This document shows positions 1,644 to 55,174 of a stretch of 64,000 nt of DNA, in pieces (the first letter of the stretch is position 1; the number at the start of each line of letters is the position of its first letter). Made by a program: the position numbers and the translations under genes. The notes below the pieces were generated by a model. That model did not search any database, was not told the DNA's origin, and was given only the letters and a program-made list of their open reading frames with translations. The stretch comes from a virus: positions 1 to 64,000 of IMG/VR virus record IMGVR_UViG_3300036760_000945. The stretch is one strand, 5' to 3'.

Positions 1644-2482
1644 CCATCCAACGCATTGACGAAATCGCACGTAAGGTCATCGATGATACCCGCAGGCGCC
1701 AAGAGCATCCCGAGGACTTTCGGCCTATCCCAACGAATCTCGAGGATCTCGACAAGATCATTGGCGGCATCACCGAGAGTCTCTATGTGGTCATTGGTGG
1801 GAAACACAAGACCGGTAAGTCGTCCCTGGCACTACATATTGCCTCTGCATTGGCCGCCTCTGGCCGCGGCAGAACCGAGTTCTATTCACTTGAGGAACTA
1901 CGAGAGCAGATGGGCACAAGATCGCTGGTGCGTCTCACCAATACAGTAGATCGCACAATGATGCGGAACCTCGTATTACAGGAGCAGCACTTCGAAGAGC
2001 TAGAGGCTGCACACGGTATGCTCATGGAGGGTAAAGTAAACTTGTGGCTTGAGGATGCCGAATCTACAGTAGAAGTGATTATCAAGGCTGCCATAGAAAA
2101 TAAGGCCAAGTTCGTGATTGTAGACTATTTGCAGCTTCTCGAAAGCAGGGCAAAGAAGACTGATAGCTATGTCCAGCAATGGGATCAGATCTCGGCACAG
2201 TTTGTCAGGGCCAGAAACCAGCACGAGATTTGCTTTGTGGTCGTCTACCAAATAGGTGAGCAAGGCAAAGCCTATGGCTCCCGCGCGGTCTACAGAGATG
2301 CAGACCTGATCATTGAAGTTGAAAGAAAGATAGATATTGTTACCGCAAAAGAGCTTGAGGAGCTTATCCACGTCAATGTGCGCCGCTCCAGGATCTGCAT
2401 GAGTGGCGAATGCGATCTAGCATTCAGTGGTGCACACAGTCGAGTTGGTAATATCCTACCACTAAATTTAGACATAGTATGA
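1640..2482 (+). CDS. DnaB-like replicative helicase, RecA-type core only, 280 aa
   Basis: Predicted hexameric 5'-3' helicase motor. Walker A-like GGKHKTGKSS at about residues 53-62, followed by a KaiC/DnaB-like core with Walker B FVIVDYLQLLE near residue 155 and a late Gln/Arg-containing segment (VVYQIGEQ, then the basic NVRRSR). It is short: full DnaB proteins are about 450 aa and have an N-terminal primase-interaction domain, which is missing here apart from about 35 residues. It could therefore work as a minimal helicase or a RecA-like ATPase. The ATGA overlap with the loader gene supports the helicase reading. Confidence 0.85.
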   Translation: MTIQRIDEIARKVIDDTRRRQEHPEDFRPIPTNLEDLDKIIGGITESLYVVIGGKHKTGKSSLALHIASALAASGRGRTEFYSLEELREQMGTRSLVRLTNTVDRTMMRNLVLQEQHFEELEAAHGMLMEGKVNLWLEDAESTVEVIIKAAIENKAKFVIVDYLQLLESRAKKTDSYVQQWDQISAQFVRARNQHEICFVVVYQIGEQGKAYGSRAVYRDADLIIEVERKIDIVTAKELEELIHVNVRRSRICMSGECDLAFSGAHSRVGNILPLNLDIV

Positions 2483-2488
2483 TATAAT
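2480..2488 (+). promoter_or_regulatory. extended -10 promoter (TGATATAAT)
   Basis: TATAAT at 2483-2488 preceded by TGn, overlapping the helicase stop codon, 24 nt before an ATG with an AAGGAG ribosome binding site. No good -35 hexamer at the usual distance. The following bases (TATAATACAGATGT) are identical to the promoter at 8666. Confidence 0.7.
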
Positions 2489-2512
2489 ACAGATGTTCAA
2501 GAAGGAGACAAA

Positions 2513-2764
2513 ATGAGCGACACAATGAGAAACCTTGAAGATCTCATCGCTGAAGAGGTAGGCATCGGTGTCCACACGGGACTACGCAAGTATTGTGGTT
2601 CAATAGAAGCGAACAAGGCATGGCACAGCATTAAAGAGATGCCAAGTAAAGAATGGGAATGCGTATGTGATGGAGTAGCAGAGGAGATAATCAAGGTTCT
2701 ACAAGAGCAGTACGTGAAGGGGAACCTGATCGGCAAGCTATGGCCACCTTTGTGCGTATTGTAA
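2513..2764 (+). CDS. hypothetical protein, 83 aa, own promoter
   Basis: Starts MSDTMRNLEDL after AAGGAG at 2502-2507. The first 70 residues look like a normal soluble helical protein. The last residues (GKLWPPLCVL) run into sequence that, in another frame, encodes an HNH endonuclease core, so the natural C-terminus may have been altered by an insertion. Function unknown. Confidence 0.6.
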   Translation: MSDTMRNLEDLIAEEVGIGVHTGLRKYCGSIEANKAWHSIKEMPSKEWECVCDGVAEEIIKVLQEQYVKGNLIGKLWPPLCVL

Positions 2765-2942
2765 CCAGAAGAAGCCTCTCCAGATGGACCATGTAGTTCC
2801 ACTTTCGAAGGGTGGCAGACATGATATAGATAATATAGTTCCAGCGTGCAAACCATGCAATGATAGTAAGGGAGTTTCTTCACTCTTGGTATTCTTATAC
2901 CGAAGGGCACAATCAAAAAGGAGTATACCAACAATATGCTAA
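2730..2942 (+). pseudogene. HNH endonuclease core without its own start
   Basis: In the frame read from 2742 the codons give a clear HNH core: HLCAYCNQKK, then MDHVVPLSKGGRHD, then IDNIVPACKPCNDSKG. That is CxxC, the catalytic DH, the conserved N of the middle HNH position and a second CxxC. The frame is closed upstream by a TGA at 2727-2729 and has no usable start codon before the first CxxC. It therefore looks like a decayed homing endonuclease, or the C-terminal part of the 2513 gene joined by a +1 frame change. Its last codons carry an AAAGGAG ribosome binding site and the ATG of the next gene at 2936. Confidence 0.75.
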
Positions 2943-3331
2943 AACTCTTTATGGGCAACCCCAGAGAGTTTATTAGACTAATACAATCTGGCATTTTCAA
3001 TCGCCTCACAAAGTTCTTCAATAATCTTGCGGGCAGGACCAGCGCCAGAGCATACCGCCTACTCTATGGCGGAGAAATGCCAGCGGCCCTGCCCAATGTA
3101 GCCACCTTACGAGACGATGAGGTGTTCGTTGTGGTAACTATCTATAAGGGGAGTGTCAGAATTGATGGGATTGTGGGGGCCCCAGAAAATGTGCAGATGT
3201 ACCTGGACAATTACCCGGGCGCAGTTGCCTATGTAAGGCGTATTGATGAATTGAAGCAAAGCGTCATGGGAATAATTACTTCACCGCAAATTTATGCTAG
3301 TGGCAGGAGCGATAAGAAATGGCTACTATAA
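2936..3331 (+). CDS. hypothetical protein, 131 aa
   Basis: Starts MLKLFMGNPREF with AAAGGAG 11 nt upstream. The N-terminal 40 residues are amphipathic and basic; the rest (FVVVTIYKGSVRIDGIVG and following) looks like a compact alpha/beta fold. No family recognised. It overlaps the wHTH gene by 13 nt. The ribosome binding site and start lie inside the 3' end of the HNH remnant. Confidence 0.6.
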   Translation: MLKLFMGNPREFIRLIQSGIFNRLTKFFNNLAGRTSARAYRLLYGGEMPAALPNVATLRDDEVFVVVTIYKGSVRIDGIVGAPENVQMYLDNYPGAVAYVRRIDELKQSVMGIITSPQIYASGRSDKKWLL

Positions 3332-3555
3332 CCGTTTTATCAGATCAGCACCTGATGGTCCTTCTTGGAATATCTCGGCACCAATCCATTCGCGAGATCG
3401 CTGCAATCATAGGCCGTGCAGTTGGCACAGTCCAGCAGAGATTGCACGATCTCGAGGAGGCTGGCCTGATCTCCAAGAGCGTGGCAAGAAAAGCACGTAA
3501 CAGATATCTGACAAGCAGCGGCCAGGCGCTATTGCAGCAGCGCAGGCTCGGCTAG
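3319..3555 (+). CDS. winged helix-turn-helix DNA-binding protein, 78 aa
   Basis: A single wHTH domain fills the protein: helix 2 HQSIREIAAIIG, turn, recognition helix AVGTVQQRLHDLEEAGLI, then a wing-like segment ending RYLTSSGQALL. This is the layout of MarR/ArsR-type minimal regulators. With no other domain it is probably a small transcription regulator of the phage. The start overlaps the previous gene. Confidence 0.75.
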   Translation: MATITVLSDQHLMVLLGISRHQSIREIAAIIGRAVGTVQQRLHDLEEAGLISKSVARKARNRYLTSSGQALLQQRRLG

Positions 3556-3574
3556 TTTCCAAGTTGGAGGAAGA

Positions 3575-3610
3575 ATGGACCAAGACCAGATCAAAGCATT
3601 TGTTATCTCT
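3575..3610 (+). repeat. degenerate copy of the 5' end of the 4237 gene
   Basis: ATG at 3575 follows GGAGG and reads MDQDQIKAFVIS, close to MEQKVKEFIIS at 4237. The DNA also matches (ATGGA, CA, AAAG, TTATCTCT in register). It then runs into the GIY-YIG gene and hits a stop at 3731-3733. It marks the left edge of an endonuclease insertion in the first codons of the 4237 gene. Confidence 0.65.
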
Positions 3611-3623
3611 TCTAGAGGTAGTT

Positions 3624-4253
3624 ATGCTTCAACAGGGTATTTACCAAATTACAAATCTAATCAGTGGCAGTTTCTATATTGGCCAGTCAAGTCACTTAGC
3701 TACTCGAAGGGCAGAGCATTGGCGTTCACTTAGAAGAGGCAATCACCACAACCAACATATCCAGTATGCCTGGAATAGATACGGCCCAGAGAGTCTTAAA
3801 TTTACAACTCTCTTATACTGTGAGCTATTTGAGCTTACACATTATGAGCAGGCATTTGTAGAGAGACTACATCCAGAATATAACATCTGCCTTGAGTGTG
3901 TAACTAGCACTCGAGGTTTATCTCTTTCAAATGAGCACAAGAAGAAAATCAGTATATCACTACTTGGCAACACCAGAAATCTTGGCCGTCATCATACAGA
4001 CAGTACCAAGCAGAAAATGAGTATGGCGCGCAAAGGTAAACCACATCCTTATAGGCGCCCCCCTCATTCAGAGGAGACAAAGCAGAAAATGAGTATAGCA
4101 GCACTTGGCCGGCACCTCTCTGAGGAAAGTAAACAAAAGATAAGCAAGGGACACATGGGCCTACGCCCCACAGAAGAAACCAGAAAGAAAATGAGTAGAA
4201 CACATAAGCTACTAAAATCCAGAAGGAGACTAGAATATGGAGCAGAAAGTTAA
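3624..4253 (+). CDS. GIY-YIG homing endonuclease with NUMOD3 repeats, 209 aa
   Basis: The GIY-YIG catalytic domain is at residues 5-90: GIYQITN, then FYIGQSS, then a catalytic-type Arg/Glu region (RRAEHWRSL and HYEQAFVERLHPEYN). The C-terminal half holds five NUMOD3-like DNA-binding repeats of about 18 residues (HKKKISISLLG, TKQKMSMARKG, TKQKMSIAALG, SKQKISKGHMG, TRKKMSRTHK). The start at 3624 follows AGAGGT; the open frame extends upstream from a TTG at 3564 but that part is the copied start of another gene. The 3' end contains the ribosome binding site and ATG of the downstream gene. Confidence 0.92.
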   Translation: MLQQGIYQITNLISGSFYIGQSSHLATRRAEHWRSLRRGNHHNQHIQYAWNRYGPESLKFTTLLYCELFELTHYEQAFVERLHPEYNICLECVTSTRGLSLSNEHKKKISISLLGNTRNLGRHHTDSTKQKMSMARKGKPHPYRRPPHSEETKQKMSIAALGRHLSEESKQKISKGHMGLRPTEETRKKMSRTHKLLKSRRRLEYGAES

Positions 4254-4593
4254 AGAGTTCATTATCTCTGTGCGCCTGCGTTCCAGGGCAGAGATGAACG
4301 TCAACGGCTCAAGCCGGAAGAGTGTTAAAAGGCTCATCATTCAGATGACTGACGCCCTTGAGAACAAGAAGTTGAGGAACCATGTGCTAGCAGCAATTAC
4401 GGGGCTGCCTATCACCAGCCAAAACCAACTTACGCAGGGCAGCACCAGTATCCTGATTGATGAAACGAACGATGGCAAGTCGAATGAGATCCTGCGCGCT
4501 ATCGAAGAAGTAGTAGCCGCAGGCTTTGCAAAGGATCCTATTCACTTTCGCCCGTGCACATTGTTTCAATGGGAGCATCCCAGTGGCAAATAA
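4237..4593 (+). CDS. hypothetical protein, 118 aa, displaced by the GIY-YIG gene
   Basis: No family recognised. Mixed alpha/beta composition with a basic N-terminal half. The start and its AAGGAG lie inside the last codons of the GIY-YIG endonuclease (17 nt overlap). A second, degenerate copy of its first twelve codons lies in front of the endonuclease at 3575, so the gene seems to have survived the insertion by using a start supplied by the element. It overlaps the next gene by 11 nt. Confidence 0.65.
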   Translation: MEQKVKEFIISVRLRSRAEMNVNGSSRKSVKRLIIQMTDALENKKLRNHVLAAITGLPITSQNQLTQGSTSILIDETNDGKSNEILRAIEEVVAAGFAKDPIHFRPCTLFQWEHPSGK

Positions 4594-5014
4594 ATTATCA
4601 GAGAGAGACCTGCTCAAGATAAACTTAGTTTCAGAGCGCAGCATGTTTGTCCCGGGCAAAGGTAGATTCCCTATTTGCCCCGTTTGTAAGCACGCTATCT
4701 TTGGTGCACCCGACCTCCATGAGGCAATTATCACCCGCGGCCAGGTAGCAGGTACGGGGAAGGCAAGAAAGGACAAGATATATAGCCGTTATAACTGTGT
4801 GCTAAGGCACAATACTTGCCCTACCGGACAGTCGCATACACCGGGCATTGGCAGTCACGAAGACTTTGATGCTTGCCTCAAGCAGATTATAGAGTTTGAG
4901 GGCTATGAGGCGCTCTTGGAATGGCTGGCTAGCATGGAGGATACCTATCCAATAGCAGCTACCCAGGCCATGTTCCGTGTCAAAAGCCACCACAACAAAG
5001 CAAAAGGAGACTAA
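4583..5014 (+). CDS. zinc-binding HNH/treble-clef-like protein, 143 aa
   Basis: The GTG at 4583 with GGGAGC upstream is preferred over earlier in-frame starts that lie inside the previous gene. CPVC at about residues 32-35, LHEAIITRG at about 44-52 and a following NCVLRHNTCP resemble the metal-binding frame of treble-clef/HNH-like phage proteins, but the catalytic DH pair is not obvious. The C-terminal 50 residues are helical. It could be a nuclease or a structural zinc protein; I cannot decide. Confidence 0.6.
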   Translation: MANKLSERDLLKINLVSERSMFVPGKGRFPICPVCKHAIFGAPDLHEAIITRGQVAGTGKARKDKIYSRYNCVLRHNTCPTGQSHTPGIGSHEDFDACLKQIIEFEGYEALLEWLASMEDTYPIAATQAMFRVKSHHNKAKGD

Positions 5015-5015
5015 A

Positions 5016-5345
5016 ATGTATATCGAACTAGACAAGATAGCGCTTATTATCAACTTCATGTATGTTCATGACATGAGGATGCACAACGACAAAGGAAGAA
5101 AGAATAAATTCTTTGGGTGTCCAATGGTCACAGTGTGTTGGCTTACTGATCGGAAACCAGGGGAACCAATGGCCAGAACTACGGAAACACAGGCGCGGTG
5201 TTCCGAGTCAGAAAAGACCTGTAACAAGATCCGCGGGAAGAAAGTGGCCCTCGCGAAGGCACTCATCTCAGCATTCCCAGAGAACAAAGATATTCGTAGG
5301 CGGGTCTGGGAACAATACCTGGCACTTACGGCACCTGGAGGCTAA
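5016..5345 (+). CDS. hypothetical protein, 109 aa
   Basis: The start at 5016 is chosen for the strong AAAGGAG 7 nt before it. The middle is Cys- and Arg-rich (RCSESEKTCNKIRGKK) and the C-terminus is helical. The spacing to the neighbours is one to two bases, so it lies within the same operon. Function unknown. Confidence 0.6.
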   Translation: MYIELDKIALIINFMYVHDMRMHNDKGRKNKFFGCPMVTVCWLTDRKPGEPMARTTETQARCSESEKTCNKIRGKKVALAKALISAFPENKDIRRRVWEQYLALTAPGG

Positions 5346-5346
5346 T

Positions 5347-5898
5347 ATGTTCGATAGTTTTGTCAGTGAACAGAAAGACAAGACGCCCAATGCCGTCCCC
5401 TTCTTCGATGAAGTCAAGGCAAGTGCTGGTTGGCAGGGCTATGCAACGACCAAATCTCTTGACACCCTCAAGGCCGAGGTCATGACCGCCATGAGCCGGC
5501 TGGGAGGTCTAGTGAGCGGCTTCGAGAGAGGTATGTACGGCGAGCGTGGCGGGTTTAGGATCCATTACACTATTGAGTCGGAGACGGGCAAGATGTACCC
5601 GGGACAAATGGATATTGCCGCGCTGCCGGTCAGGAAGACGCCACACCGCAGGTCCTACCAAGGCTACGAAAAACTCTGCGAGCAGGCCCTGCGTATGGCG
5701 CTGTACAATATAGCCATGTGCCTTGAGGGTATGTGGCTTATGCAGCAACTATCGCCAGGGTACGCGCCGCTTATCCCATGGATGCTAGTAGCAAACGGCA
5801 AGACAGTAACCCAACTATGGAGCGAGAGCTCCTCAATGAAGGCGCTAGCCCCGCTAGTAGAGGAAGAATTCATCGAGGGCATTGCGAGAGAGATATAG
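5347..5898 (+). CDS. hypothetical protein, 183 aa
   Basis: Starts MFDSFVSEQ one base after the previous stop, with GGAGG upstream. Residues 60-95 look like beta strands (GGFRIHYTIESETGK) and the C-terminal half is helical and rather hydrophobic (ALYNIAMCLEGMWLMQQL). No membrane signal is strong enough to call. No family recognised; its position between zinc proteins and the RNA ligase suggests a role in nucleic-acid metabolism only by context. Confidence 0.65.
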   Translation: MFDSFVSEQKDKTPNAVPFFDEVKASAGWQGYATTKSLDTLKAEVMTAMSRLGGLVSGFERGMYGERGGFRIHYTIESETGKMYPGQMDIAALPVRKTPHRRSYQGYEKLCEQALRMALYNIAMCLEGMWLMQQLSPGYAPLIPWMLVANGKTVTQLWSESSSMKALAPLVEEEFIEGIAREI

Positions 5899-5910
5899 GA
5901 GAAAAACAAA

Positions 5911-5976
5911 ATGGAACATATTAGCAGCTATCCTTGGCCACTTGTAGTATACTTAGGGCATGGAAATATCCATTGA
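5911..5976 (+). repeat. degenerate copy of the RNA ligase 5' end
   Basis: An ORF of 21 codons starting MEHISSYPWP and continuing VYLGHGNIH before a stop. The true ligase starts MQHISSYCEV and continues YQLGHRSIK. It has its own ribosome binding site (TAGGAG at 5897-5902) and lies 204 nt upstream of the intact start. The fragment looks like the original start of the ligase gene, cut off by the insertion of the 5960-6112 sequence. Confidence 0.65.
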
Positions 5977-6112
5977 ATATCTTGCATTGTTTATTGCAAC
6001 AAGTAGCGGGGGACGAGGACACCAGCATGGAATGCAGCGCCTGCCAATCGAACTTGAAAAGCGAAGAGAAGAACTAAAACAACTACTACACCAAGAAAAT
6101 AGGAGATATTGA
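5960..6112 (+). CDS. small ORF between two copies of the ligase start, 50 aa
   Basis: The ORF reads MEISIEYLALFIATSS and ends with a charged helix ELEKRREELKQLLHQENRRY. Its last codons contain the GGAG used by the ligase ATG at 6115. It occupies the same position relative to the ligase as the GIY-YIG gene does to the 4237 gene. It may be the remains of a mobile insert or a new small gene; no nuclease motif is visible. Confidence 0.4.
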   Translation: MEISIEYLALFIATSSGGRGHQHGMQRLPIELEKRREELKQLLHQENRRY

Positions 6113-6114
6113 CA

Positions 6115-7023
6115 ATGCAACACATTTCAAGTTATTGTGAAGTTTATCAGCTTGGCCACCGCTCAATCAAGGATATTTTCTCATCAGAGGTTGTCCTAGA
6201 AGAGAAAATTGACGGCTCATCATTTTCGTTTGGGGTCCTTGGCGATGAATTAGTATGTCGCAGCAAGGGCAAGCAATTGATAGTCGATGCACCAGAAAAG
6301 ATGTTTACGAAGGCCATTGCAACTGCGCAGAGAATTATGCCAGAACTACACAAGGACTGGATCTATCGTGGTGAGTTTCTTGAAAAGCCAAAGCACAACA
6401 CACTAAAATACTCACGTGTGCCAGATGGCAATATCATCATATACGATATAATGGTTGCGCCGGAGGACTATCTTGGGCCCCAAGAGAAGGTCGAGGAGTG
6501 CAGGAGGCTTGGCCTCGAATGTGTGCCCCTGCTAGCCAAAGGCAAGATCGACAACCTCGAGATGTTCAAGGAGTTCCTCGAGCAGGAGTCAATCTTGGGC
6601 GGCACCAAGATTGAGGGCATAGTAATCAAGAACTACTCACTGTTCACTCAATCCAAGAAGGCAATGATGGGCAAATATGTCAGTGAGGCCTTCAAGGAGG
6701 TCCATGACAAGGACTGGAAAACACGCAACCCTCATGGGAAAGACCTAGTATTTATGCTTACAGAGAAATATCACACTGAGGCGCGTTGGCAAAAAGCAAT
6801 CCAGCACCTACGCGACGCCGGTGCCCTTGAAGGGTCGCCTAAAGATATTGGCTTGCTCATCCGCGAGGTGCCAGCCGACATCCTGAAGGAATGTGAAACT
6901 GAGATTAGGGATGTTCTATTCAAGCACTTCTGGCCGCAAATTGCCCGGGGCGTTACCCGCGGGTTGCCCGAGTTCTACAAAGAGCAGCTTGCGGAGAGTA
7001 CATTCCAGGAGGTTAAGGAATGA
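6115..7023 (+). CDS. Rnl2-like RNA ligase, 302 aa
   Basis: ATP-dependent RNA ligase of the nucleotidyltransferase superfamily, predicted to seal nicked or cleaved RNA such as host-damaged tRNA. Motif I EKIDGSSFSFG has the lysine that would be adenylylated at residue 31; motif III YRGEFL is at about 84-89; motif IV EGIVIK is at about 167-172; motif V is MMGKYV with Lys near 187. The C-terminal 100 residues are helical, as in Rnl2. A TTG at 6109 is in frame, but the ATG at 6115 has better spacing from GGAG. The phage also carries a tRNA-Arg, consistent with tRNA defence, although this link is inference. Confidence 0.9.
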   Translation: MQHISSYCEVYQLGHRSIKDIFSSEVVLEEKIDGSSFSFGVLGDELVCRSKGKQLIVDAPEKMFTKAIATAQRIMPELHKDWIYRGEFLEKPKHNTLKYSRVPDGNIIIYDIMVAPEDYLGPQEKVEECRRLGLECVPLLAKGKIDNLEMFKEFLEQESILGGTKIEGIVIKNYSLFTQSKKAMMGKYVSEAFKEVHDKDWKTRNPHGKDLVFMLTEKYHTEARWQKAIQHLRDAGALEGSPKDIGLLIREVPADILKECETEIRDVLFKHFWPQIARGVTRGLPEFYKEQLAESTFQEVKE

Positions 7024-7054
7024 AAATCTGGATACATGTTAAGGGAGCACTATA

Positions 7055-7399
7055 ATGCCAACAGCCCGAGAATATGAGGATGAGATCGAGCGCCAGCAGA
7101 GAACCAATCAGGACCTATTTAGTCAACTAGCAAACATCAAAAGTCAAGTTGTTACCCTAGAGGATATAGAAAAGATGGAGCAGAATTATATCCACGCAAG
7201 TAACTATCAGTTCCGTCGAGAGAATGAAAGATTTAGTTGGCTCACGGATCTTCTTTGTGCCATCAGAAAATATCTAGGGATAGAAGACAAAAAGTATGGC
7301 CTCTCGTCCCTAATAGATAGGGCCAAGAACAAAAAACTAATCCTCTTACTCGATGCTCTCCAGATCTTTTACTCGAGGATGGACCTAGATGATAGATAG
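7055..7399 (+). CDS. coiled-coil hypothetical protein, 114 aa
   Basis: Residues 5-65 are rich in Glu, Gln and Lys with heptad-like spacing (YEDEIERQQRTNQDLFSQL), suggesting a coiled coil. The C-terminal part is Leu-rich and helical. GGGAG lies 8 nt before the ATG. No family recognised. Confidence 0.6.
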   Translation: MPTAREYEDEIERQQRTNQDLFSQLANIKSQVVTLEDIEKMEQNYIHASNYQFRRENERFSWLTDLLCAIRKYLGIEDKKYGLSSLIDRAKNKKLILLLDALQIFYSRMDLDDR

Positions 7400-10777: not shown

Positions 10778-12544
10778 ATGGGAATAAAGACAGGCATTAG
10801 CTACGTTCATGGAACCTGGAATTGCTGGCAGGGCTGTCAGAAAGTATCAGAAGGCTGCAAGAATTGCCTCGACCCCGCAACGCTGATTTTATATCGAGAT
10901 TGGACATGGCGGCTCATAGGGGATGCCAAAGAGGGCGATCTACTAATTGGGTTTAATGAAACCGGCAAAGGATTGCGCAAATTGGCCCTTGCTGAAATCC
11001 AAGGAGTTCGCAATACAAGACAGCCTGCTATTCGGGTCACAACCAAACAGACGGAAGTAATTTGCTCAGCAGAACATCCGTTTCTGATAAGCGGGCGTGG
11101 CACCTGGCAAAAACCTGCCAAATTTACCCTGACTACAACATTGCGCTATATTCCCCAACAAACGCGTTTCCAAGAGACAGAAGATTATCGTATTGGTTAT
11201 ATAGCAGGAATGACCGCGGGAGACGGCACAATGCAGTGGGAGGAGGGCTGGGGTTCAGTATGGCGCAAAGAGTCCCCGCAGTGCTACTGGCGAGTAGCAG
11301 TCACTGATCGCGAGATACTTGAGCGGCTTCAGAACTATCTTGCTACAGTGTTGAATCTATCACTGGAAATAAAGGACTTTGATGGTGGCAACAAAGGTAT
11401 AAAGCCCTGCTGGAAACTAGAGACCCGAAGCCAGCCGGTGCTAGCCACCATTGCAGCAATTTTGAGGCCAAGAGAGACAATAGAATATGCCCGAGGCTGG
11501 CTGGCTGGAATATTCGATGCTGAAGGTAGTCACCAAATCAACGCGGCACATGCCAGTAACTTACGCATTAGTAATACAGACACACGAATCCACGAGACTA
11601 TAATCAATTACGCCGCGAAACTAGGTTATCAATTCAAACTAGAGGCTACCCAGGTAGAGAGAGCACGAACTGTGCGTCTATATGGTGATGCTGCCAAGCG
11701 CGGTGCCTTTCTAGGCACTATTCAGCCTGCCCTACTTCGTAAAGTAGATGGACTGCTGGGGCACTCAATCTCATATCAACCGTCGCCAGTGATAGGCATT
11801 GAACAAATGCCAGTTAGAGACCTAATCGATATTCAAACCAGCACCAAGACGTTTTATGCCAGCGGATTGGCAACACATAACTGTTACATGTACCGGGAGA
11901 AGCTCAGATATGGACAATATCCTGCGGAAGTTGTCAGGTCCCGGGATAGAACATTCTTCGCGCCACGTTGGTGGAAATTGCACGATGGCGCAAGGATCAT
12001 GGTGTGTAGTTGGTCAGATTTCTTCCATATAGACGCAGACAAATGGCGGCCAGAGGCATGGAAGATAATAAAGGAACTGCCACAGTACAACTTCCTGATC
12101 CCAACCAAGCGCCCCGAGCACATTACTGCCTCTCTGCCGGCTGATTGGGGCAGTGGCTATCCCAATGTCTGGCTTGGCGTGAGTGTCGAGAATCAAGAGA
12201 TGTTCAAGAAGCGCGTGCCTATACTCATGGATATTCCAGCAAAGCTGCGCTGGCTCAGTATTGAGCCCATGTTAGGCCCGCTCAGTATCTGGGATGCTGG
12301 TGCCTATGCAGGTAGCTATATAGACTGGGTAGTGCTGGGAGGTGAATCGGGCCCACATCACAGACTAATGGAGAATGAGTGGGCATTGAAGATCGTGGAG
12401 GAATGCAAGATTGCGATGATCCCCGTGTATGTGAAACAAAAGGGCGGCTGGCCCAATACAAGGCACCGGCTCGAGGATTTGCCCGAAGGACTCAAGATCA
12501 GGGAATACCCGGGTTCCAAAGATTGGCCAGTATCATTGGGCTAA
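10778..12544 (+). CDS. DUF5131 (phage Gp37/Gp68-like) protein containing an intein, 588 aa precursor
   Basis: The host protein is split around an intein at residues 30-368. Extein part one is residues 1-29, with Cys at 16, 20 and 27 in a CxxxC...GCKN motif. Part two starts CYMYREK and holds FFAPRWW, IMVCSWSDFFH, TKRPEH, WLGVSVENQ, WLSIEPMLGPL and VVLGGESG, the characteristic DUF5131 blocks. The spliced product would be 249 aa. The family has a conserved cysteine cluster at its N-terminus resembling a metal site; its reaction is not established. The intein sits exactly in that cluster, so without splicing the protein is broken. GAGGAG precedes the start. A terminator follows the stop. Confidence 0.9.
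   Translation: MGIKTGISYVHGTWNCWQGCQKVSEGCKNCLDPATLILYRDWTWRLIGDAKEGDLLIGFNETGKGLRKLALAEIQGVRNTRQPAIRVTTKQTEVICSAEHPFLISGRGTWQKPAKFTLTTTLRYIPQQTRFQETEDYRIGYIAGMTAGDGTMQWEEGWGSVWRKESPQCYWRVAVTDREILERLQNYLATVLNLSLEIKDFDGGNKGIKPCWKLETRSQPVLATIAAILRPRETIEYARGWLAGIFDAEGSHQINAAHASNLRISNTDTRIHETIINYAAKLGYQFKLEATQVERARTVRLYGDAAKRGAFLGTIQPALLRKVDGLLGHSISYQPSPVIGIEQMPVRDLIDIQTSTKTFYASGLATHNCYMYREKLRYGQYPAEVVRSRDRTFFAPRWWKLHDGARIMVCSWSDFFHIDADKWRPEAWKIIKELPQYNFLIPTKRPEHITASLPADWGSGYPNVWLGVSVENQEMFKKRVPILMDIPAKLRWLSIEPMLGPLSIWDAGAYAGSYIDWVVLGGESGPHHRLMENEWALKIVEECKIAMIPVYVKQKGGWPNTRHRLEDLPEGLKIREYPGSKDWPVSLG
10865..11881 (+). mobile_element. LAGLIDADG intein in the DUF5131 gene, 339 aa
   Basis: The first residue is Cys of CLDPATLIL, the last residues are LATHN and the +1 residue is Cys, all as required for class 1 splicing. 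Block B is SAEHPFLIS; block F is DIQTSTKTFYASGL. The endonuclease carries two LAGLIDADG motifs: IGYIAGMTAGDGTM and RGWLAGIFDAEGS. Both contain the acidic residue needed for catalysis, so splicing and homing both look intact. Confidence 0.92.
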
Positions 12545-13027: not shown

Positions 13028-13366
13028 ATGCAAACAAGAGTCCGCAGTGTGAAGTATCCATGGGGAATCTATCGCCGCAGGGATATCATGAAGAGGAAAT
13101 ATGGTATCACGCTCAGCAAATACTATGACATGTTCGTCCAGCAGAAAGGCAAGTGTGCAATATGCAGTACGCATCAGGATGACCTAGGAAGACTGTTGGC
13201 CGTTGATCACGATCACAAAACAGGCAAGATACGAGAACTACTCTGTGGCCCCTGTAATCATGGACTTGGCAATTTTAGAGATGGCCCAGCGCTTTTACAG
13301 AGGGCCATTAAATACCTCGAAAGGCATACAGGAAAAGGAGCGCAAAATGAACTGTCCACGTTGTAA
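13028..13366 (+). CDS. recombination endonuclease VII-like protein, 112 aa
   Basis: The core reads YGITLSKYYDMFVQQKGKC, then AICSTH, then LAVDHDHKTGKIRELLC, then GPCNHGLG. This gives CxxC, the catalytic DHDH, and a second CxxC with the following Asn-His, the signature of T4 endonuclease VII-type His-Me nucleases. Such proteins resolve branched DNA or act as homing nucleases. Its 3' end contains the ribosome binding site and ATG of the next gene (20 nt overlap), the arrangement seen at the other endonuclease insertions here. Confidence 0.9.
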   Translation: MQTRVRSVKYPWGIYRRRDIMKRKYGITLSKYYDMFVQQKGKCAICSTHQDDLGRLLAVDHDHKTGKIRELLCGPCNHGLGNFRDGPALLQRAIKYLERHTGKGAQNELSTL

Positions 13367-15887
13367 CTCTAACAACTATAGCAAATATGGGCATGGTCGT
13401 CATAGCGAACAGAGATATCAGTGCGCTGACTGCAAAAGCACTTTCGTAGAGGGTATAGAAGAAAGAAAAACAGAGCGAGAAGCGGGGCGTCTGAACTGCC
13501 CCTGGTGTGACAGCACTAACGTAACCCGGCGAGGGAAAACCAATAATGGTGAACAAAAATATCATTGTGAAGACTGCAAGAAATACTATAGAGAAAGGAC
13601 AATCAAAGTAATAAACACTAAAGTGCCCTGTCCCTACTGTCATTCTACCAACACATGCAAGGAAGGCAAGAAGCCAAGTGGTATGCAGGAGAGAAAATGC
13701 GAGAAGTGTGGGAGATACTTTAGTGACAGCACCCTCGATAAGTTTAACTCCCTGGATGCCAGCGAGATCGAATATACCGATAACGAGATCCATGTTGTGG
13801 AGGTTTCTAGGGCGCCAAAGACACTAGAGACAATCATCAAAGAGCGGGGCATCAATATGGACGAATGGGAAGTTGCCAAGTACAGAGTAAAAACTTCCGA
13901 GGGGTACCGCAAAGACAGAAAGTCTGACTGGCATGTCGTAGATGGCAAGGTTGTGCATGGAGATGTAGAGGATAGCGGCAAAATGTTGATCGTTCCTCTC
14001 TATAGCGTCGAGGTCCTCTTCGCCAAAAAGGTAAAGGTTGTTGAGGCAAGGCTCGGCATTCAAGAAATGCTGGCCGATGCCAAGGAATATGCTCCCAAGT
14101 ATGACGAGATCCAGTATCCCCAATTTCCCGCTGGCGTACTCTACGAAGTCTCTATCCCCGACATCCACTTTGGGCGCCTTGCCTGGGCCGAGGAAAGCGG
14201 CGATGACTATGACATCAAGATAGCCAAGAGGATGGTCATGGAGACCCTCAAGAAACTATTGGCTTACTCAAAGAACTATCCAGTTGAAAAGATCCTTCTC
14301 CCACTTGGAAACGACTACTTCAATGTCAACAGTAAGAGCAATACCACTGTCCGCGGCACCCCGCAGCAGGAGGATACACGCTGGGCAAAAACCTACAGAA
14401 AAGGTAGGGAAATGGCCGTGGAGATGATCGACCAGTGTTCTGCAATAGCCCCAGTAGACGTACTGATGATATCGGGCAACCACGACTGCTATTCTGCTGA
14501 TACAGAGGTCCTAACAAACGCCGGGTGGAAAAACTATAAGATGCTCGTCGAGGCCGATATGGTTGCGACCATCAACCGCCATACCAAAGAGGTAGAATAT
14601 CAGCCCTATACCAATCTGGTTGAATATGACTATGATGGAGAAATGTACAATTTCAAAAACAGATTTACCGATGTTCTTGTAAGCCCAAACCATAGAATGC
14701 TGCACAGAGTAAGTTGGCAAGATGATTATAGTTACTCTACTGCCGAAACACTATCAAAGCATAGTGTATACCACTTTAGAATCTCAGGGAGAAACGCAAG
14801 GGAGGACTTCCCGATTGACGATAACTGGTTGCGCCTCTTTGCCTGGCTAAACACAGATGGGGGGATACGGTCGCCAATATCATATACTATCTACCAAAGT
14901 AAAAGAACTGGGTGTGACAAAATCGAGAGCGTTCTCTCTTCTCTTGGAATAGGGTATAAGAAGGCAGTCAAAGAAAAAGCAATAAAAGAAATTGGCGGCA
15001 GGATTCTCAGAAATATCCCCCTTCCGTTTACCACCTATAGCCTAAACACAAAACACACATCGCGGGAGCATCTTGCGTTTATCTCCGCCCATATTACCGA
15101 TAAATACAAGGTTCCTCAAGTATTGTTTCAGTGTTCTGAGAGGCAGGTGGATATTTATGTCTCTTCCTTTGTTGATGGAGACGGAACAAGGAAAGCAGAT
15201 AATAGTACCTGGGCGATGGTATATGGAAAGGAAAACCTATTATCCGATCTACAACATCTTCTTGTAGAAAATTCATACTCGGCACACATGAATTTCTATC
15301 GCGACCAGCAGTGTAGATTATATCTAGTTAAGGGTCATGTAAATACTAAAATGAAGCCGGGCTACATAAGCAAAATAATGTATCGTGGCAAGATCTGGTG
15401 TCTTCAGGTTCCCAACAGCAATTTTATTACCCGCAGAAACGGTAAGGTTGCAATACATGGGAATTCTGAAAAAATCTTTTACATGGGCGATGCGCTGGAA
15501 TGCTGGTACAACAACAATCCCAATGTCAAAGTCGACAATCTAGCCAGGACCAGGAAGTATTATTCCTATGGGAGAGTCCTACTTGGCTTTACTCACGGCT
15601 GTGATATAAAAATCGACAGGCTCGTATCAGTCATGCCCCTCGAGGAGCCCCATCTTTGGGGGCAGTCCAAGTTTAGAGAATGGCATATAGGCCATGTCCA
15701 CCACGCTTATAAGCTGAACAATGACATAGAGGAAATGGTTGGCGTTGTAGTACGCTCACTGAGATCTCTGGTGCCAGCAGACGCCTGGACCTTCGATCAT
15801 GGATTGGTTGGGGCTATCAAGGCCGCCGAGGCGTTTCTCTGGGACAAAGAAGCGGGACTGATCGCACAATTCATGGCGCTACCATGA
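13347..15887 (+). CDS. metallophosphoesterase with three zinc ribbons and an intein, 846 aa precursor
   Basis: The start at 13347 has AAAAGGAG 8 nt upstream; earlier in-frame codons overlap the endonuclease gene. The N-terminus has three zinc-ribbon repeats of about 40 residues (CPRC...CADC, CPWC...CEDC, CPYC...CEKC), each with the G...GQ.Y.C pattern of transposase-type zinc ribbons. The phosphoesterase follows with SIPDIHFG, LPLGNDYF, ISGNHD, GFTHG and GHVHH, the five metal-binding motifs. An intein interrupts it just after GNHD. The spliced product would be 520 aa. Probably a DNA-associated nuclease or phosphatase; zinc ribbons suggest nucleic-acid binding. Confidence 0.88.
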   Translation: MNCPRCNSNNYSKYGHGRHSEQRYQCADCKSTFVEGIEERKTEREAGRLNCPWCDSTNVTRRGKTNNGEQKYHCEDCKKYYRERTIKVINTKVPCPYCHSTNTCKEGKKPSGMQERKCEKCGRYFSDSTLDKFNSLDASEIEYTDNEIHVVEVSRAPKTLETIIKERGINMDEWEVAKYRVKTSEGYRKDRKSDWHVVDGKVVHGDVEDSGKMLIVPLYSVEVLFAKKVKVVEARLGIQEMLADAKEYAPKYDEIQYPQFPAGVLYEVSIPDIHFGRLAWAEESGDDYDIKIAKRMVMETLKKLLAYSKNYPVEKILLPLGNDYFNVNSKSNTTVRGTPQQEDTRWAKTYRKGREMAVEMIDQCSAIAPVDVLMISGNHDCYSADTEVLTNAGWKNYKMLVEADMVATINRHTKEVEYQPYTNLVEYDYDGEMYNFKNRFTDVLVSPNHRMLHRVSWQDDYSYSTAETLSKHSVYHFRISGRNAREDFPIDDNWLRLFAWLNTDGGIRSPISYTIYQSKRTGCDKIESVLSSLGIGYKKAVKEKAIKEIGGRILRNIPLPFTTYSLNTKHTSREHLAFISAHITDKYKVPQVLFQCSERQVDIYVSSFVDGDGTRKADNSTWAMVYGKENLLSDLQHLLVENSYSAHMNFYRDQQCRLYLVKGHVNTKMKPGYISKIMYRGKIWCLQVPNSNFITRRNGKVAIHGNSEKIFYMGDALECWYNNNPNVKVDNLARTRKYYSYGRVLLGFTHGCDIKIDRLVSVMPLEEPHLWGQSKFREWHIGHVHHAYKLNNDIEEMVGVVVRSLRSLVPADAWTFDHGLVGAIKAAEAFLWDKEAGLIAQFMALP
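14487..15464 (+). mobile_element. LAGLIDADG-like intein in the metallophosphoesterase gene, 326 aa
   Basis: Starts at Cys of CYSADTEVLTNAGW, right after GNHD. Block B is VLVSPNHRML. The ends are VAIHGN followed by Ser as +1. The penultimate residue is Gly where His is usual, which is known to be tolerated in some inteins but may slow Asn cyclisation. Two endonuclease motifs are visible: LRLFAWLNTDGGI and VSSFVDGDGTR. Host motif placement (metal-binding GNHD) is typical for inteins. Confidence 0.88.
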
Positions 15888-19071: not shown

Positions 19072-20079
19072 TTAGCTCCGGGTCTTGGGACCAACTTGTA
19101 AGGCATCTAATTCTGCTACTGTCCATGCAAGTCCAGTTTGTGGGTTGACAAGATATTCGGTTCCGAAAATCCGTTTATTGTAAACACTTAACAATTCAAC
19201 ATCCGGACCCGCATACTCAACAGCATGTGTCTTCACCACAAGAGAAATCAGACCCCCCGCTGCAACAGTATCTTTTGCTCGTGCTTCTGCATAAACGCGG
19301 AAAATGGTTACGTTTGCCAGATTACTTGGCGATAAATTATATAAATCTTTTTCATCAACAGTTGCTCCTTCAACATAGGTTGTGTCGCCGTCTGCCGGAA
19401 TATCATCCACAAGCAAGTAATTATCAACCTGATTTGCATCTGAGCCCGTTAATTGAGAAAGATCACCATTGGCGTTTGGCCGCAACAATATAATCCTTCC
19501 GTCCCCACACCAAGAATCATCAACTCCTCCAGCCAAATCATTCAAAGCCAGATCGTCGAAATATTCAGTGGCATTATCTCCAAACATTAAATATACAATA
19601 TCCGCAGATGATGCAGTGAATGTATCTCCAGTGAATGTTACATCCAGCACACCATCAATTCTCACCTCGACTATGCCTCCAACATTTGCTACCCCAATAT
19701 GAATCTCTACTAGATGCCATTCATTTAGTGATATTGGAGTTGTGCCTCTTGCTACTTCTGTTGGATTACCTCCGGCATCAAAAAGGACGATCCCTATACC
19801 AATGCTACCAATAGCATTGATTGAACACATCTTTTCTGTGGGAGTATGTCCAAATGCAAAAATCTCCTGTGCGTTGGATGCGGTATAGTAGGCAAAGCGT
19901 AGATAAAGTTCAGTTAGAGGAGCTATCTGTTTCATTGATGGCGTCTGTCCTAAAGAATTGGCAGACCAACTCACTAAACCTGATCTTATATGGGCTGAGG
20001 ACAGCGAATCACCCACACCGACGTAAGTCCAGAATAGTTCGTCTTGCATTTCAAAACCTTCAGTAAATATTCTAGCCAT
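19072..20079 (-). CDS. LamG/concanavalin-like tail protein, 335 aa (paralogue A)
   Basis: Starts MARIFTEGFEMQDELFW. Residues 10-175 have the jelly-roll pattern: SGLVSWSANS, TELYLRFAYYT, SLNEWHLVEIHI, VEVRIDGVLDVTF, EYFDDLALND. The C-terminal half contains SWCGDGRIILLRPNANG and a second beta domain. Probably an adhesin or decoration protein of the tail. It has the same length and plan as the neighbouring gene at 20125, so the pair arose by tandem duplication. Confidence 0.75.
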   Translation of the reverse strand: MARIFTEGFEMQDELFWTYVGVGDSLSSAHIRSGLVSWSANSLGQTPSMKQIAPLTELYLRFAYYTASNAQEIFAFGHTPTEKMCSINAIGSIGIGIVLFDAGGNPTEVARGTTPISLNEWHLVEIHIGVANVGGIVEVRIDGVLDVTFTGDTFTASSADIVYLMFGDNATEYFDDLALNDLAGGVDDSWCGDGRIILLRPNANGDLSQLTGSDANQVDNYLLVDDIPADGDTTYVEGATVDEKDLYNLSPSNLANVTIFRVYAEARAKDTVAAGGLISLVVKTHAVEYAGPDVELLSVYNKRIFGTEYLVNPQTGLAWTVAELDALQVGPKTRS

Positions 20080-20124
20080 TTTTATACCTCTTTCTTGTAT
20101 AAATTGGGATCATTTTCTCTAAAT

Positions 20125-21132
20125 TCATCGAATTATACATCCGGCCTGGAGTGCGTTCACACGCGCTTCTGTCCAGGCAGCCGAGTCCGCAGGATCTGTT
20201 AAATATTCAGCAGACAAATAGCGGGCATAGGCAAGTGTTAGGGCTTGATCTACGCCCTGTTCGTCCGTTGTGGCGCTGCGCAAGAGTGTAGCGATTTTAT
20301 CTCCGTCCGCTGCTGTTTCAAGTGCATCCACTTCTACCCACACACGAGCAATGGAAGCGCCACTAGGCAGTCCGGCAATGTCGGACAAGAGATAAGTGGA
20401 CTTTTTGTCCACTGTGGACTCGTAAACATAGTCTGTGCTGTTAGCTGGGATTTCATTTACGCAATCCCAAGCGTTGCCGGTACTGGCAATCAAGTCGGCG
20501 TATTCGGCAGCGCCAGTAATAGGTACTAACGCCGCAAGTACACCGCCGTCACCGATCCAAGAATTATCAACAGCGCCAGCAGTATCATTAAAGGCAATAT
20601 CGTCAAAATAAGAGTTGTTACTTCCACTAGGAGCAGTAACAGAACGACAGTAGAATCTGTCCATTGCCGCCTGAGCATTTGTTGCACCAGACCAATCAAG
20701 GACAAGCGTACCATCGAATTTGACCTGGAAGATCCCATTGGGGGCCGCTGCAATTTTGACGTGGACTTCAAATACGTGCCATTCATTCAGGTTCATGGTG
20801 AATAAGGAACTTGTTGCCCTTAATGTAGTACCATCATACATCTCTATACTCGCTACTCCATTTCCAAACGTCTTAGTTCGCAACGATCCGGCCTCACTCG
20901 CACCATTATTCCATTGAAAGAACCGGCAAGCACTCGAAAGGTCCACGCGAAAGGCAAAGCGGATATAAAACTCTGTCATAGAGGTAAGAACTTTCAGCGC
21001 CGAGTGAGCAGAAGAAGCAATTCTATATGAATAATTTCCTGTTCGTCTTGTTGTACTGATAGATACTTCTTCAACACTTGTCAATCTCAACAGATCACCG
21101 CTTTCTGCACCGTCTGTAAATAGTCGAGTCAT
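20125..21132 (-). CDS. LamG/concanavalin-like tail protein, 335 aa (paralogue B)
   Basis: Starts MTRLFTDGAESGDLL. Shares with its neighbour the blocks TEFYIRFAF, NLNEWHVFEVHVKI, FQVKFDGTLVLDW, YFDDIAFND and the later SWIGDGGV, at matching positions. A jelly-roll lectin-like N-domain followed by a beta-rich C-domain. The two sequences have diverged strongly outside these blocks, which could broaden receptor range. Confidence 0.75.
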   Translation of the reverse strand: MTRLFTDGAESGDLLRLTSVEEVSISTTRRTGNYSYRIASSAHSALKVLTSMTEFYIRFAFRVDLSSACRFFQWNNGASEAGSLRTKTFGNGVASIEMYDGTTLRATSSLFTMNLNEWHVFEVHVKIAAAPNGIFQVKFDGTLVLDWSGATNAQAAMDRFYCRSVTAPSGSNNSYFDDIAFNDTAGAVDNSWIGDGGVLAALVPITGAAEYADLIASTGNAWDCVNEIPANSTDYVYESTVDKKSTYLLSDIAGLPSGASIARVWVEVDALETAADGDKIATLLRSATTDEQGVDQALTLAYARYLSAEYLTDPADSAAWTEARVNALQAGCIIR

Positions 21133-27112: not shown

Positions 27113-30100
27113 CTAGCTCCTCAGCTCCTTCGTGACCGCATCGAGGACAAAGGAAGAGAGTTTCTCGTTGCCAATATAGATGTTCACAATCTGTGGCGCA
27201 CCGGCCTTCTTGCCGCCCATTGGAATATAGGATGAACCGCCAGCAATTGTTACGCCGACAGGGCGCTGGAAAAGATTATGAATACGTTTCAGACTCTCCC
27301 ATTCGCTGTGTGGAATTACACGGCCGCCGACGATGCCTTCAGTGCCCTGTTCGCCAACTTCGACTGCGCCACTAGCAAGACCTCGAAGAATACCACCTGC
27401 GGCTTTCATGCTTTCAAGGTTATGAGCCAATACTCCGCCAGCAAAATAGCTATGTGTCTCGTCATCCGTTCCGAAGTTATAGGACGGTACCTGTTCTCCG
27501 TTCCAGGAAAGATCTGTTACAACAACGTCTTTTCCATCTTTGTCCAGTAGCGCATCTCCAAGTCGTAAAGTCTTGGCATGTGCCCACTCGCCATTAATAG
27601 ACATTGGGTGTCCCGCTGTTACGCCAAGGTGCTTATTGATAGTAATATAGCCACAGTTGCTTTTAGCAGAGTGATGAAACACTTTATTGACCCTCGCATT
27701 TACCGGCTCGCGAGTCTTGATATTCATCGAGAGAACCATATCTCCAACCTGAACCTCTTCAATGGGTTTGGTCAAGCCGGCTACCATTGTTATCATTGTT
27801 CCTGCAATGAAGCATGGTGCATTTCCTTCACCTTCGCCATGCTCGGTTGTGACTCCTGGCATCCGTAGAAGTTGATCAATCCACTTTTTGAGAATAGGTA
27901 TAGAAGTGGACATGGCGGTTTGCCAATCCATTAGGGCATCGTCTGTCAATAGACTGAGTGCGCCCTTGGCATTATCGGCATAGATCTGGAACTTGACCAT
28001 TGCGTCGTTCAGATCTTTTTGCTGTTTGGCATAGAAGGCAGTAATACCAGCCGACTCTTTCTCGAGCGCCATCTGCTGGATATACTGTGCGCGTTCGAGC
28101 TTGGTCTGCTCTTCCTGGAGTATCTTGTTCTGCTGGTAATACTCGATGGACTTATCGAGTTGTTCCTGTTGCATCTTTAGATTCTCTTTGAACTGTTTGT
28201 TCTGAAGAGCAAAACGCTGATCTTCAAGTTTCCAGAGTTCCTTCTGCCTATTCTTTTGTTTATCGATCTGCTCACCTTCAAGATCGTGCATAATTGTCTC
28301 GCGGCCCATTTGCCGTTCTGCAAGTTTGCGTTCACGCCCAGTCATGAAACGGATATTTTCGGCGTAGTCTTCCTGGCGCCAGCCCCACTGAAGTTCGCGT
28401 GTTTGGGTCTGATAGCCCCAGTCTTGCTGTGTCCAGCCGCGTTGCATTTGCGTACCGCGTTGATTGAGTGCCATGTTCTCCTGGAACTGCTGCGCGCCAA
28501 GGTTCATGCCTCTCTGCTGAAAACCGAATTGCCATCCCTGTTGTTGATAACCAAGTGCGCGTTGTGCGTCCTGCAGACCCCAAGTACCGCCCTGGTACAA
28601 CGGCCCAAACGGCTGCCCGGTCTGTGGATTGATTGTACCCGCATATTGTTGTATGCCAACGCCGGTCGTAAAGGCCAGATTCTGATTTACACGTTTCATC
28701 GCCAGGCCAGCAGAGGCCATTGCCTGATTGTACTGAGACTGGTTCTGCATGAACTGTAGTGCATACTGGCCACCAATATTGCCAATTGTTTCACCGCTGG
28801 CAAGTGTCATTGGCCCACCAGGAATTGCAATACCACCAGCCATGCCAGCAATGAAGGGTGCAGCCAGGCCGGTAGAGGTTTGCCAGTTTCTACCCCAGAT
28901 CTGTTGTGCAGTCTGGAGTCCAGTCTGGCCAACCTGTGCCAAACTACTCTGTCCCCAATTCAAACCTGTTGGCTGGTTGGTCCCCATACGTATATCGGTC
29001 AAGGCCATATTGTTAATACCCATAGTCTGGCCAGTGATCATGGGGAAGCGCTGGGCCATCAACTGTGGCGATATTCCGCCCGTTGCAGCAAGTGCAGCAA
29101 CTGCAGTTGGTTGTGCATTATACAACTGGTTATAGAACCATTCCTGGCCTTTGGGCATTGCACCAGAAGTGAACTGTTGATATAACTGGTTGCCGAGTGC
29201 AGGACGGTTAAATTGATAGGCTTGCTGTTGTAACTGCGCACCAATACCAATGCGATAATTGGCCTGAGCCTCCTGGGCACTCCAAGTCGCAGTCTGGCGA
29301 GCTGCTTCTTCTGGCAACATAGCGACAGCCTCACCACCAGATATATATTCTGTCTGAAGAGGTGCGGGAGTCCTAGTTAGACCTGCTGCGCGTTGTGCCA
29401 TCCATGCAGAGTAACGCGCCTTATAAACATCTCCAGCGGGTTTATTGTAAAGAATACCATTGGCTATTTGGTTATCCAGATACTTTTTCATATCTGTGTC
29501 TGTTCGAAGTTGACTTGCCGTTGTGACATTTCCAGGAAGCCACGCTGCAGCTGCACCAAAACCACTCGTGTATTGTCCACCAAGTCCCAATAGTGCTTGT
29601 TGGTTTGCAGTTGGATAGTTTTTACTAATATAGTTGGCCAGAGCACCCTGAACTGTAGTGGTTACCCCGGGAATAAGTGCAGTCCCTGCCGTTGTTTGTC
29701 CAAGAGCAGGCGGTCCCTGCAGGGTTCCATAAAGAGGAGCTGCCGCAAATGCACCTGCACCCATACCAGAGGCAGACAAAATACCTGCTGCCAGTTCACC
29801 TGGTTGCATACCTTGTTGATATTGTTCAGCAAAGCGCTGCCAATAACTCTGCGGAAGGTTTTGGTTTGAAACCAGAGTAAATGCTTTGGCAATTGCATCA
29901 GGAGCCAGATCTGTTCTTTGGCCCTGAGCGATCTGCATTGTTGTAGAAAGTGCTTTAACATATTGAGTTGTTCCAGGAAGAGTGCCAGCAAGTTGCCACA
30001 TTTGTGCATTGGGCTGTCCTGACATCATCTGGCGTAGAACTGTCCATTTCGCTGTTTCTTTATCCTGATCGGTACCACCTAGGCCAGCAGCAATACCTGT

Positions 30101-36091: not shown

Positions 36092-36763
36092 TTGCAGAGG
36101 CTCCTGGTATACTTTCCATAATAGCAATTTGTTGTTCTATCACCGACCACTCCAAGAGCCAGATATGTGGTTGGTCGAGTACCCCACCGGCAACAAGTGG
36201 AAGGCCAGTAGATCTGCATCTTTCATACAAGGTCATAGCCTCAGGTTTTTCTGGGAAATCAACCTTGAGGCCTGCCTTCAGTTCATTGAGTAGACCATAA
36301 TATTCTCTAATCTCGTCTCGTAACTTCTCCAATTTCCCCGCGACTAGGCTTCCCCCATCGGCCCAGCCCACAGAGGATTCATCTCGAGGACTTTATCGTG
36401 GATCTCTTCGGCGACTATTGGAGGAAGCCCCGCCCAGCCTCTCTTGAAGGAGGCCGGATCTACCTTGCCGTCCTTGAAGAAGAAGGTCGGCTTCCCATTA
36501 TCATTCTCGATATTGCAGCCCACCATTGTCAGCTCTACCTCTCTGCGATAGAGTTCCTCGGGGGAAAAGTGCTGAGATACAGTTAATTGGTCGCCATCGA
36601 AGACGCGGGTGAACTCCGACAGTAACGCATTGCGCACCTCACATTGGCCTTGAGTTGCCTGGCGGATACGGACAGTAGTATGATCATCCTTGACATCATA
36701 TTCTTTGTCCGTCTTCTCGAGGATGAAGTCTTTCTCGATTGGTGCAGTTAGTTTTAGTGCCAT
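36081..36763 (-). CDS. tail assembly chaperone fusion made by -1 frameshift (G-GT type)
   Basis: The upstream ORF (36344-36763) and the ORF at 36081-36371 overlap and are in a -1 relation. The second ORF has no convincing start of its own (a GTG at 36371 without a good ribosome binding site). The run of five G at 36352-36356 (minus-strand reading ATG GGG GAA GCC TAG), eight bases before the upstream stop, is the likely slip site. Its position directly before the tape measure is the classical place for this frameshift in siphoviruses. The fusion would be about 225 residues. The second part contains KLEKLRDEIREYYGLL, a helical segment. Confidence 0.75.
36344..36763 (-). CDS. tail assembly chaperone, short form (G-like), 139 aa
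   Basis: Starts MALKLTAPIEKDFIL with AGGAG upstream. Predicted to bind the tape measure and keep it soluble during tail assembly; absent from the mature virion in related systems. It ends in PLWAGPMGEA, just after the proposed slip site. Residues 25-110 have a mixed alpha/beta pattern with a charged surface. No sequence family beyond position is recognised. Confidence 0.75.
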   Translation of the reverse strand: MALKLTAPIEKDFILEKTDKEYDVKDDHTTVRIRQATQGQCEVRNALLSEFTRVFDGDQLTVSQHFSPEELYRREVELTMVGCNIENDNGKPTFFFKDGKVDPASFKRGWAGLPPIVAEEIHDKVLEMNPLWAGPMGEA

Positions 36764-43087: not shown

Positions 43088-43213
43088 AATAAACGCAAAA
43101 AAGAGAACAGAATAGATATATCCCTCGTCTCGTCTGTTCTCTTCTAGTTTACTTCTGGTCTAGGCTAGATTATAAGGTGTTATCCTGAAAAAAGCAAGCT
43201 CCACCCGGAAATG

Positions 43214-43516: not shown

Positions 43517-43551
43517 TTTACATCTCCTCTTGAATTTGGTTTGTTCCCTCA

Positions 43552-55141: not shown

Positions 55142-55174
55142 TGACATTCTCCTTCTTGGATAGGCATCTCCTTG

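Follow-up and report, generated by a model that had tools for sequence, protein, structure and literature searches.

The closest described counterparts of the locus analyzed here are the mobile endonuclease ORFs (mORFs) of Glomus and Allomyces mitochondria, in which the ORF is flanked on one side by a foreign C-terminus joined to the gene and on the other by the native C-terminus, left stranded (PMC3630166). Duplicated C-termini of this kind accompany mORFs in Allomyces atp6 and in Glomus atp6, atp9, cox2 and nad3, and the two copies in Glomus atp6 are 63.5% identical in nucleotides and 91% in amino acids (PMC3630166). In the present phage a free-standing endonuclease gene likewise lies between two diverged copies of a part of its target gene, of which the imported one would complete the gene, and the copies, most clearly those at ssb, are again low in DNA identity and high in protein identity. 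In contrast to the fungal elements, the start of the gene with its ribosome binding site and ATG is replaced here rather than the end, translation restarts without an in-frame fusion, and the host replicon is a phage. The element therefore appears to work like a mORF but is no member of that class as defined, because the substitute part is N-terminal and not C-terminal.

In phages, the insertions of MobE and MobA split their target gene into pieces. MobE in Aeh1 nrdA and MobA in T4 gene 39/60 likewise lie in or beside essential genes whose function is kept, and co-conversion of the flanks with the endonuclease gene is established in phage homing (PMC2988022); a duplicated gene start is unmentioned in the same review of T4.

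The window, bases 1-64000 of an 82,851-bp viral contig, carries on its plus strand a winged-helix gene (3319-3555, with Pfam HTH matches) whose stop lies 20 nt ahead of the ATG of a partial copy of a downstream gene's start. This upstream copy (3566-3616, plus strand), MDQDQIKAFVISSR, has a ribosome binding site GGAGG at 3566-3570, an ATG at 3575 and 14 codons, and the frame opening at this ATG begins MDQDQIKAFVISSRG. Codon 14, AGA (3614-3616), makes up the first letters of AGAGGT (3614-3619). Next follows, on the same strand, a GIY-YIG/NUMOD3 homing endonuclease gene (3624-4253); its ORF is open from TTG 3564 and ends with the stop at 4251-4253, while the probable start is ATG 3624 (MLQQGIYQ..), with AGAGGT just 5′ of it. 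In Pfam, the protein combines a GIY-YIG domain (PF01541, 24.7 bits against a cut-off of 22.6) with NUMOD3 modules (PF07460, 55.4 bits), and it matches the PHROG homing endonuclease family phrog_314 (E = 1.7e-28). Having its own start and stop, and lying between genes and outside any group I intron or intein, the endonuclease gene is free-standing, as are those of Seg-like enzymes, and group I intron families gave no matches at 2400-7100. A terminator-like hairpin at 3889-3917, on the same strand as the gene and within it, recalls the internal terminators reported in T4 mobE and segF (PMC2988022).

The displaced intact gene (4237-4593, plus strand) encodes 118 residues and begins MEQKVKEFIISVRLR. 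A preliminary description made from the DNA alone had claimed that the end of the endonuclease gene supplies the ribosome binding site and ATG of this gene, which is indeed the case, as AAGGAG (4223-4228) and ATG 4237 both lie within the final codons of the endonuclease ORF (4223-4253), giving a 17-bp overlap. Pfam and PHROG yield no confident family for the 4237 protein, and its predicted fold (pLDDT 48) is too poor for use. Other insertion-like features are also seen in the window: an HNH-like remnant without a start codon (2731-2942, plus strand, by eye) directly follows the ORF at 2513, its stop overlapping the ATG of the next gene (2936) by 7 bp, and large genes at 10778-12544, 13203-15887, 27113-36127 and 43748-46414 (by eye Gp37/68-like, phosphoesterase-like, tape-measure and terminase) read as if interrupted by intein/Hint-type insertions, also by eye. 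The terminase gene also contains, on its other strand, an HNH ORF (45265-45984, PF13392).

When the aligned starts of the 3575 copy (MDQDQIKAFVISSR) and of the 4237 gene (MEQKVKEFIISVR) are compared, their similarity is modest. The first 18 residues of each possible start in the 82.8-kb genome were scored against the 4237 start, and among the 6,415 start codons genome-wide the one at 3575 is the top non-self match to the 4237 N-terminus. An endonuclease-free relative, G011, has an ortholog of the 4237 gene that begins MLDEEVKQFVISCRR; this start picks out 4237 and then 3575 as the best two of the same 6,415 starts, and reciprocally, among 8,040 starts in G011, that of the ortholog is the best match to the 3575 copy. 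The pair score of 32, however, lies next to a chance tail that extends to 31 (305 gene starts with a ribosome binding site from both genomes, upstream distance up to 1.5 kb), and the DNA similarity alone does not exceed its null. It could accordingly be argued that the similarity at 4237 arose by chance and that only the ssb pair, and perhaps the RNA ligase pair, described below are real; we consider this rather improbable, given the genome-wide rank of the copy, its position adjoining the endonuclease, the reciprocal match and its own ribosome binding site. The copy is convincing because it adjoins the endonuclease and matches the G011 ortholog, the score and the DNA being insufficient by themselves. 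The differences between 3575 and 4237 are mostly conservative, so that the upstream copy need not be a decayed relic, and in simulations of neutral change their divergence speaks weakly against neutral decay (P = 0.04). The preliminary description had seen a degenerate copy of the 4237 start adjoining the endonuclease; the copy itself stands, but its description as simply degenerate is not supported, as the differences at ssb are nearly all synonymous.

G011 (88.7 kb) was the one of 16 related contigs, found through the major capsid protein of the contig, that has the operon, and it is the sole endonuclease-free relative found, at 40-50% protein identity. Its operon comprises a small ORF that by eye resembles a winged-helix gene and one further gene; the 4237 ortholog, about 42% identical to the 4237 protein, comes next, followed by orthologs of the genes at 4526 and 5347. 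The GIY-YIG endonuclease, absent from the corresponding site, is thus sporadic. No second start of the 4237 ortholog is found within 1.5 kb upstream in G011 (best score 15), the G011 ssb is a single copy with one start and no endonuclease, and a scan of upstream starts in G011 gives no comparable stub pair, low-complexity repeats aside. An upstream copy in endonuclease-free relatives had been named beforehand as the finding that would speak against an insertion; this is not what G011 shows, where the 4237 ortholog and ssb each have only one start. Beyond G011, searches of viral_contigs and annotated phages with the single protein, the alignment and a back-translated motif revealed no relatives of the 4237 protein, and eight bacterial matches to the back-translated motif are due to chance.

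When every gene start in the genome is compared with the starts that precede it, six pairs score at least 32. Three of them consist of a stub, an intervening ORF and an intact gene, namely 3575/4237, 5911/6115 (RNA ligase) and 67390/67943 (ssb). The other three, 61615/62640, 63776/64928 and 20079/21132, are full-length tandem paralogs (window 61615-63041, contig 63776-65329 and window 19072-21132, respectively) unrelated to endonucleases. The presence of such paralogs raises the alternative that an endonuclease replaced the body of the first of two tandem copies and left its start, the second copy always remaining intact, and paralogs would equally yield copies that have diverged as coding sequence. 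This origin seems unlikely, as G011 has a single 4237 ortholog and a single ssb; moreover, the stubs all stop at about codon 14-20 and the endonuclease ORFs extend a little way into the intact gene, so that independent replacements would have to coincide.

The ssb locus is the clearest example of the stub architecture, and a stronger one than 4237. It is located outside the window (contig 67390-68377; L111:3390-4377; score 88) and is composed of an ssb stub, an HNH endonuclease gene and the intact ssb. The stub has 18 codons, MSIHKVIAAGYLGRDPEM; the HNH-type endonuclease (L111:3492-3956) matches phrog_2340 (E = 3.6e-18) and is akin to phage endonucleases; and the intact ssb, with a Pfam SSB match of 101.7 bits, shares 14 bp with the endonuclease ORF, which thus ends inside its target gene as do those at 4237 (17 bp) and 54551 (22 bp). 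The 4237 gene starts inside the final part of the endonuclease gene and ssb shows the same architecture, and the earlier proposal that a substitute start serves the displaced gene is to that extent supported. The ssb copies are identical in 38 of 54 nucleotides (70%) and 16 of 18 residues (89%), with 10 synonymous and 2 non-synonymous codon differences, whereas 200,000 neutral simulations with the same number of changes gave a mean of 9.6 non-synonymous codons and a minimum of 3. As the non-synonymous count is below all simulations, duplication followed by neutral decay is rejected as the origin of the ssb copies; instead, each copy would have evolved under protein-level selection in its own genome, or one may have been recoded under selection.

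A similar picture emerges at the RNA ligase gene (6115-7023, plus strand; Pfam RNA_ligase, 62.4 bits), where an upstream start copy with its ribosome binding site, MEHISSYPWPLVVYLGHGNIH followed by a stop (5898-5976, plus strand, ATG 5911), is the best of the 6,415 starts barring the gene itself. The two starts (MEHISSY..VVYLGH and MQHISSY..VYQLGH) score 39 and have 7 synonymous and 7 non-synonymous codon differences, a value as low being reached in none of 50,000 neutral simulations. Between them lies a 50-residue ORF (5960-6112, plus strand) that has no Pfam or PHROG match, is no recognizable endonuclease, and is possibly a deletion remnant. Divergence of the copies, which the preliminary description had singled out as informative, therefore rejects neutral decay for ssb and RNA ligase, both of which have diverged under protein-level selection, and does so only weakly for 4237. 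This bears on a simpler scenario in which the insertion event simply duplicated the start and the upstream copy then decayed, free of selection. The resulting anatomy would be identical, and the 4237 pair taken alone disfavors neutral decay only weakly, but the ssb and RNA ligase pairs differ mainly at synonymous sites, the stubs contain no stop or frameshift before their ends, and for ssb the scenario is refuted, which leaves it very improbable overall.

The preliminary description had also placed the same architecture at 5911-6170 and 54530-55141. At the first of these the start copy is borne out while an endonuclease is not recognizable, and the second is weak. There, an HNH endonuclease gene (54530-55147, minus strand; Pfam HNH_2) beginning MSMGDRYCGCGCGE has its stop 22 bp inside the next gene (54246-54551, minus strand), which begins MGDRYIIIVECPSCG, and in this overlap the locus is like the others. 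The common piece, however, is limited to MGDRY, in frame with the HNH protein, the next gene opening with MGDRYIII, and the score of 29 is inside the chance tail; the RYCxCGCGE of the HNH protein is a common start of such endonuclease proteins.

Another possible reason for the existence of an upstream copy is that it serves as an operator. Such a duplicate homing site, beside the endonuclease promoter, would be bound by the endonuclease for self-repression, as with I-TevI. Homing-site-like operators are found just upstream of I-TevI, II and III (PMC2988022), and directly after the ssb stub comes a promoter-like TTGACC-17-TATATT (L111:3446-3474), 5′ of the HNH gene. An operator would nevertheless need no ribosome binding site, start codon or frame, all three of which the stubs have, and no forward promoter-like site was found upstream of the GIY-YIG gene. 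As an explanation of the stubs this is highly improbable, and an operator role may be a secondary use rather than their origin.

As a whole, the loci appear best explained, and we regard this as fairly probable, if the stub is the stranded start of the recipient and the present start came with the endonuclease by homing. First, a free-standing homing endonuclease would cut the 5′ end of the target gene in a recipient phage. Next, repair would copy the endonuclease gene together with the ribosome binding site, ATG and first codons of the donor, which would become fused to the gene body of the recipient, while the left side of the break would be joined without loss, leaving 14-20 codons of the recipient start upstream as a stub. 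Finally, the gene would be expressed from the donor start, with its ribosome binding site within the final codons of the endonuclease gene, and the differing, mostly synonymous donor sequence would make the new allele a poor target. A cut in the first codons and lossless joining on the left would together account for the gene order, for two copies conserved at the protein level and for an endonuclease gene that ends inside its target; cleavage within the first ~20 codons, the direction of transfer, the one-sided joining and the resistance of the new start are all parts that we infer. Several points count against the explanation: many free-standing endonucleases of T-even phages have cleavage sites hundreds of bases from the gene that encodes them (PMC2988022), G011 is the single endonuclease-free relative found and a distant one, the RNA ligase case has no recognizable endonuclease, T-even phages with SegH have no stub, and the 4237 score is near chance.

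The nrdD-nrdG junction of T-even phages allows a comparison of occupied and empty sites. It is empty in T2H, AV122 and 236Ecol005PP, where the nrdG ATG overlaps the nrdD stop, and holds SegH in RB10 (L144:570-1304) and F2 (L146:570-1304). Relative to the SegH-free AV122, the nrdG gene of RB10 and F2 differs in 9 of the first 39 nucleotides versus 3 of the next 120 (p = 0.0002). The end of nrdD, roughly its last 108 nucleotides, differs as well. SegH therefore arrived with short foreign ends of both neighbors, among them a replacement nrdG start about 33-39 nt long. RB10 and F2 are therefore like the 4237 locus in the replaced start of the target but unlike it in that no stub of the nrdG start remains. 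In T4, mobC (42906-43538, L137) begins exactly at the position of the T2H nrdG start and overlaps nrdG by 11 bp, and mobC and nrdG both open with MNYDRIY, 21 of 24 nucleotides being identical; MobC and SegH, both placed at the nrdG start with an ORF that ends within the first bases of nrdG, resemble the 4237 endonuclease in this position relative to the target. Between T4 and T2H, nrdG has diverged throughout (about 21%, compared with 3.7% in the last 300 nt of nrdD), and a T4 nrdG with only its start recoded is ruled out, since the whole gene has diverged. MobD begins MNYTKVYNNL, and the MNYxxxY common to mobC and nrdG may be a native endonuclease motif. Because of the divergence throughout nrdG and the MNYTKVY of MobD, the T4 mobC stub is ambiguous and suggestive only.

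The architecture is unusually frequent in the present phage and is not general. At most one of the 12 free-standing endonucleases of T4 (mobC) scores for a start copy, the seven HNH genes within the initial 50 kb of CB7 yield none, and among non-redundant GIY-YIG relatives about 1 of 57 is plausible, so the suggestion of a general route for free-standing homing genes does not hold. The plausible case, L007:5911-6960, has a GIY-YIG gene before a tail-protein gene, with starts reading MSYSVPIK and MPYAVPIN and similar ribosome binding site regions, and is nevertheless within the range of chance. Other candidates were discarded: no copy precedes HNH54 of CB7, which seemed to overlap the start of the DNA polymerase gene, the top DNA-level matches in the GIY-YIG loci L045, L058, L051 and L044 are AT-rich or short, three protein-level matches are self-matches of the endonuclease, and L071 contains two endonucleases in tandem.

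With respect to mORFs, two copies flanking an endonuclease gene are found at 4237 and ssb, and at RNA ligase without a recognizable endonuclease, while copies that have diverged as coding sequence are found at ssb and RNA ligase and, weakly (P = 0.04), at 4237. No phage report of an endonuclease insertion that duplicates a gene start was found in the open-access literature, to which the search was confined, or in the Skunavirus HNH paper; as far as found, the present loci extend to gene starts and to phages a mechanism described for fungal mitochondrial gene ends. They also resemble engineered home-and-rescue gene drives, which cut a gene and carry a differently coded rescuing copy (PMC7968924), and differ from these drives in being natural, with recoding as a defence against re-cutting something that we only infer. 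Tentatively, the elements might be natural home-and-rescue elements, whose endonucleases cut genes of replication and repair (ssb, RNA ligase, 4237) within their first ~20 codons and carry a differently coded, cut-resistant start; loss of the segment would break the gene, and the stub may double as an operator.

A standing question is how endonuclease genes settle, often at essential genes, in phage genomes that have no room to spare, and a carried-in replacement start would explain it. The insertion would be tied to the function of the gene, because deleting the insert would cut the gene from its start. A stub together with a substitute start is a simple signature in the sequence by which any collection of phages can be screened, and its occurrence here suggests that homing genes can enter a packed genome without killing the gene that they break.
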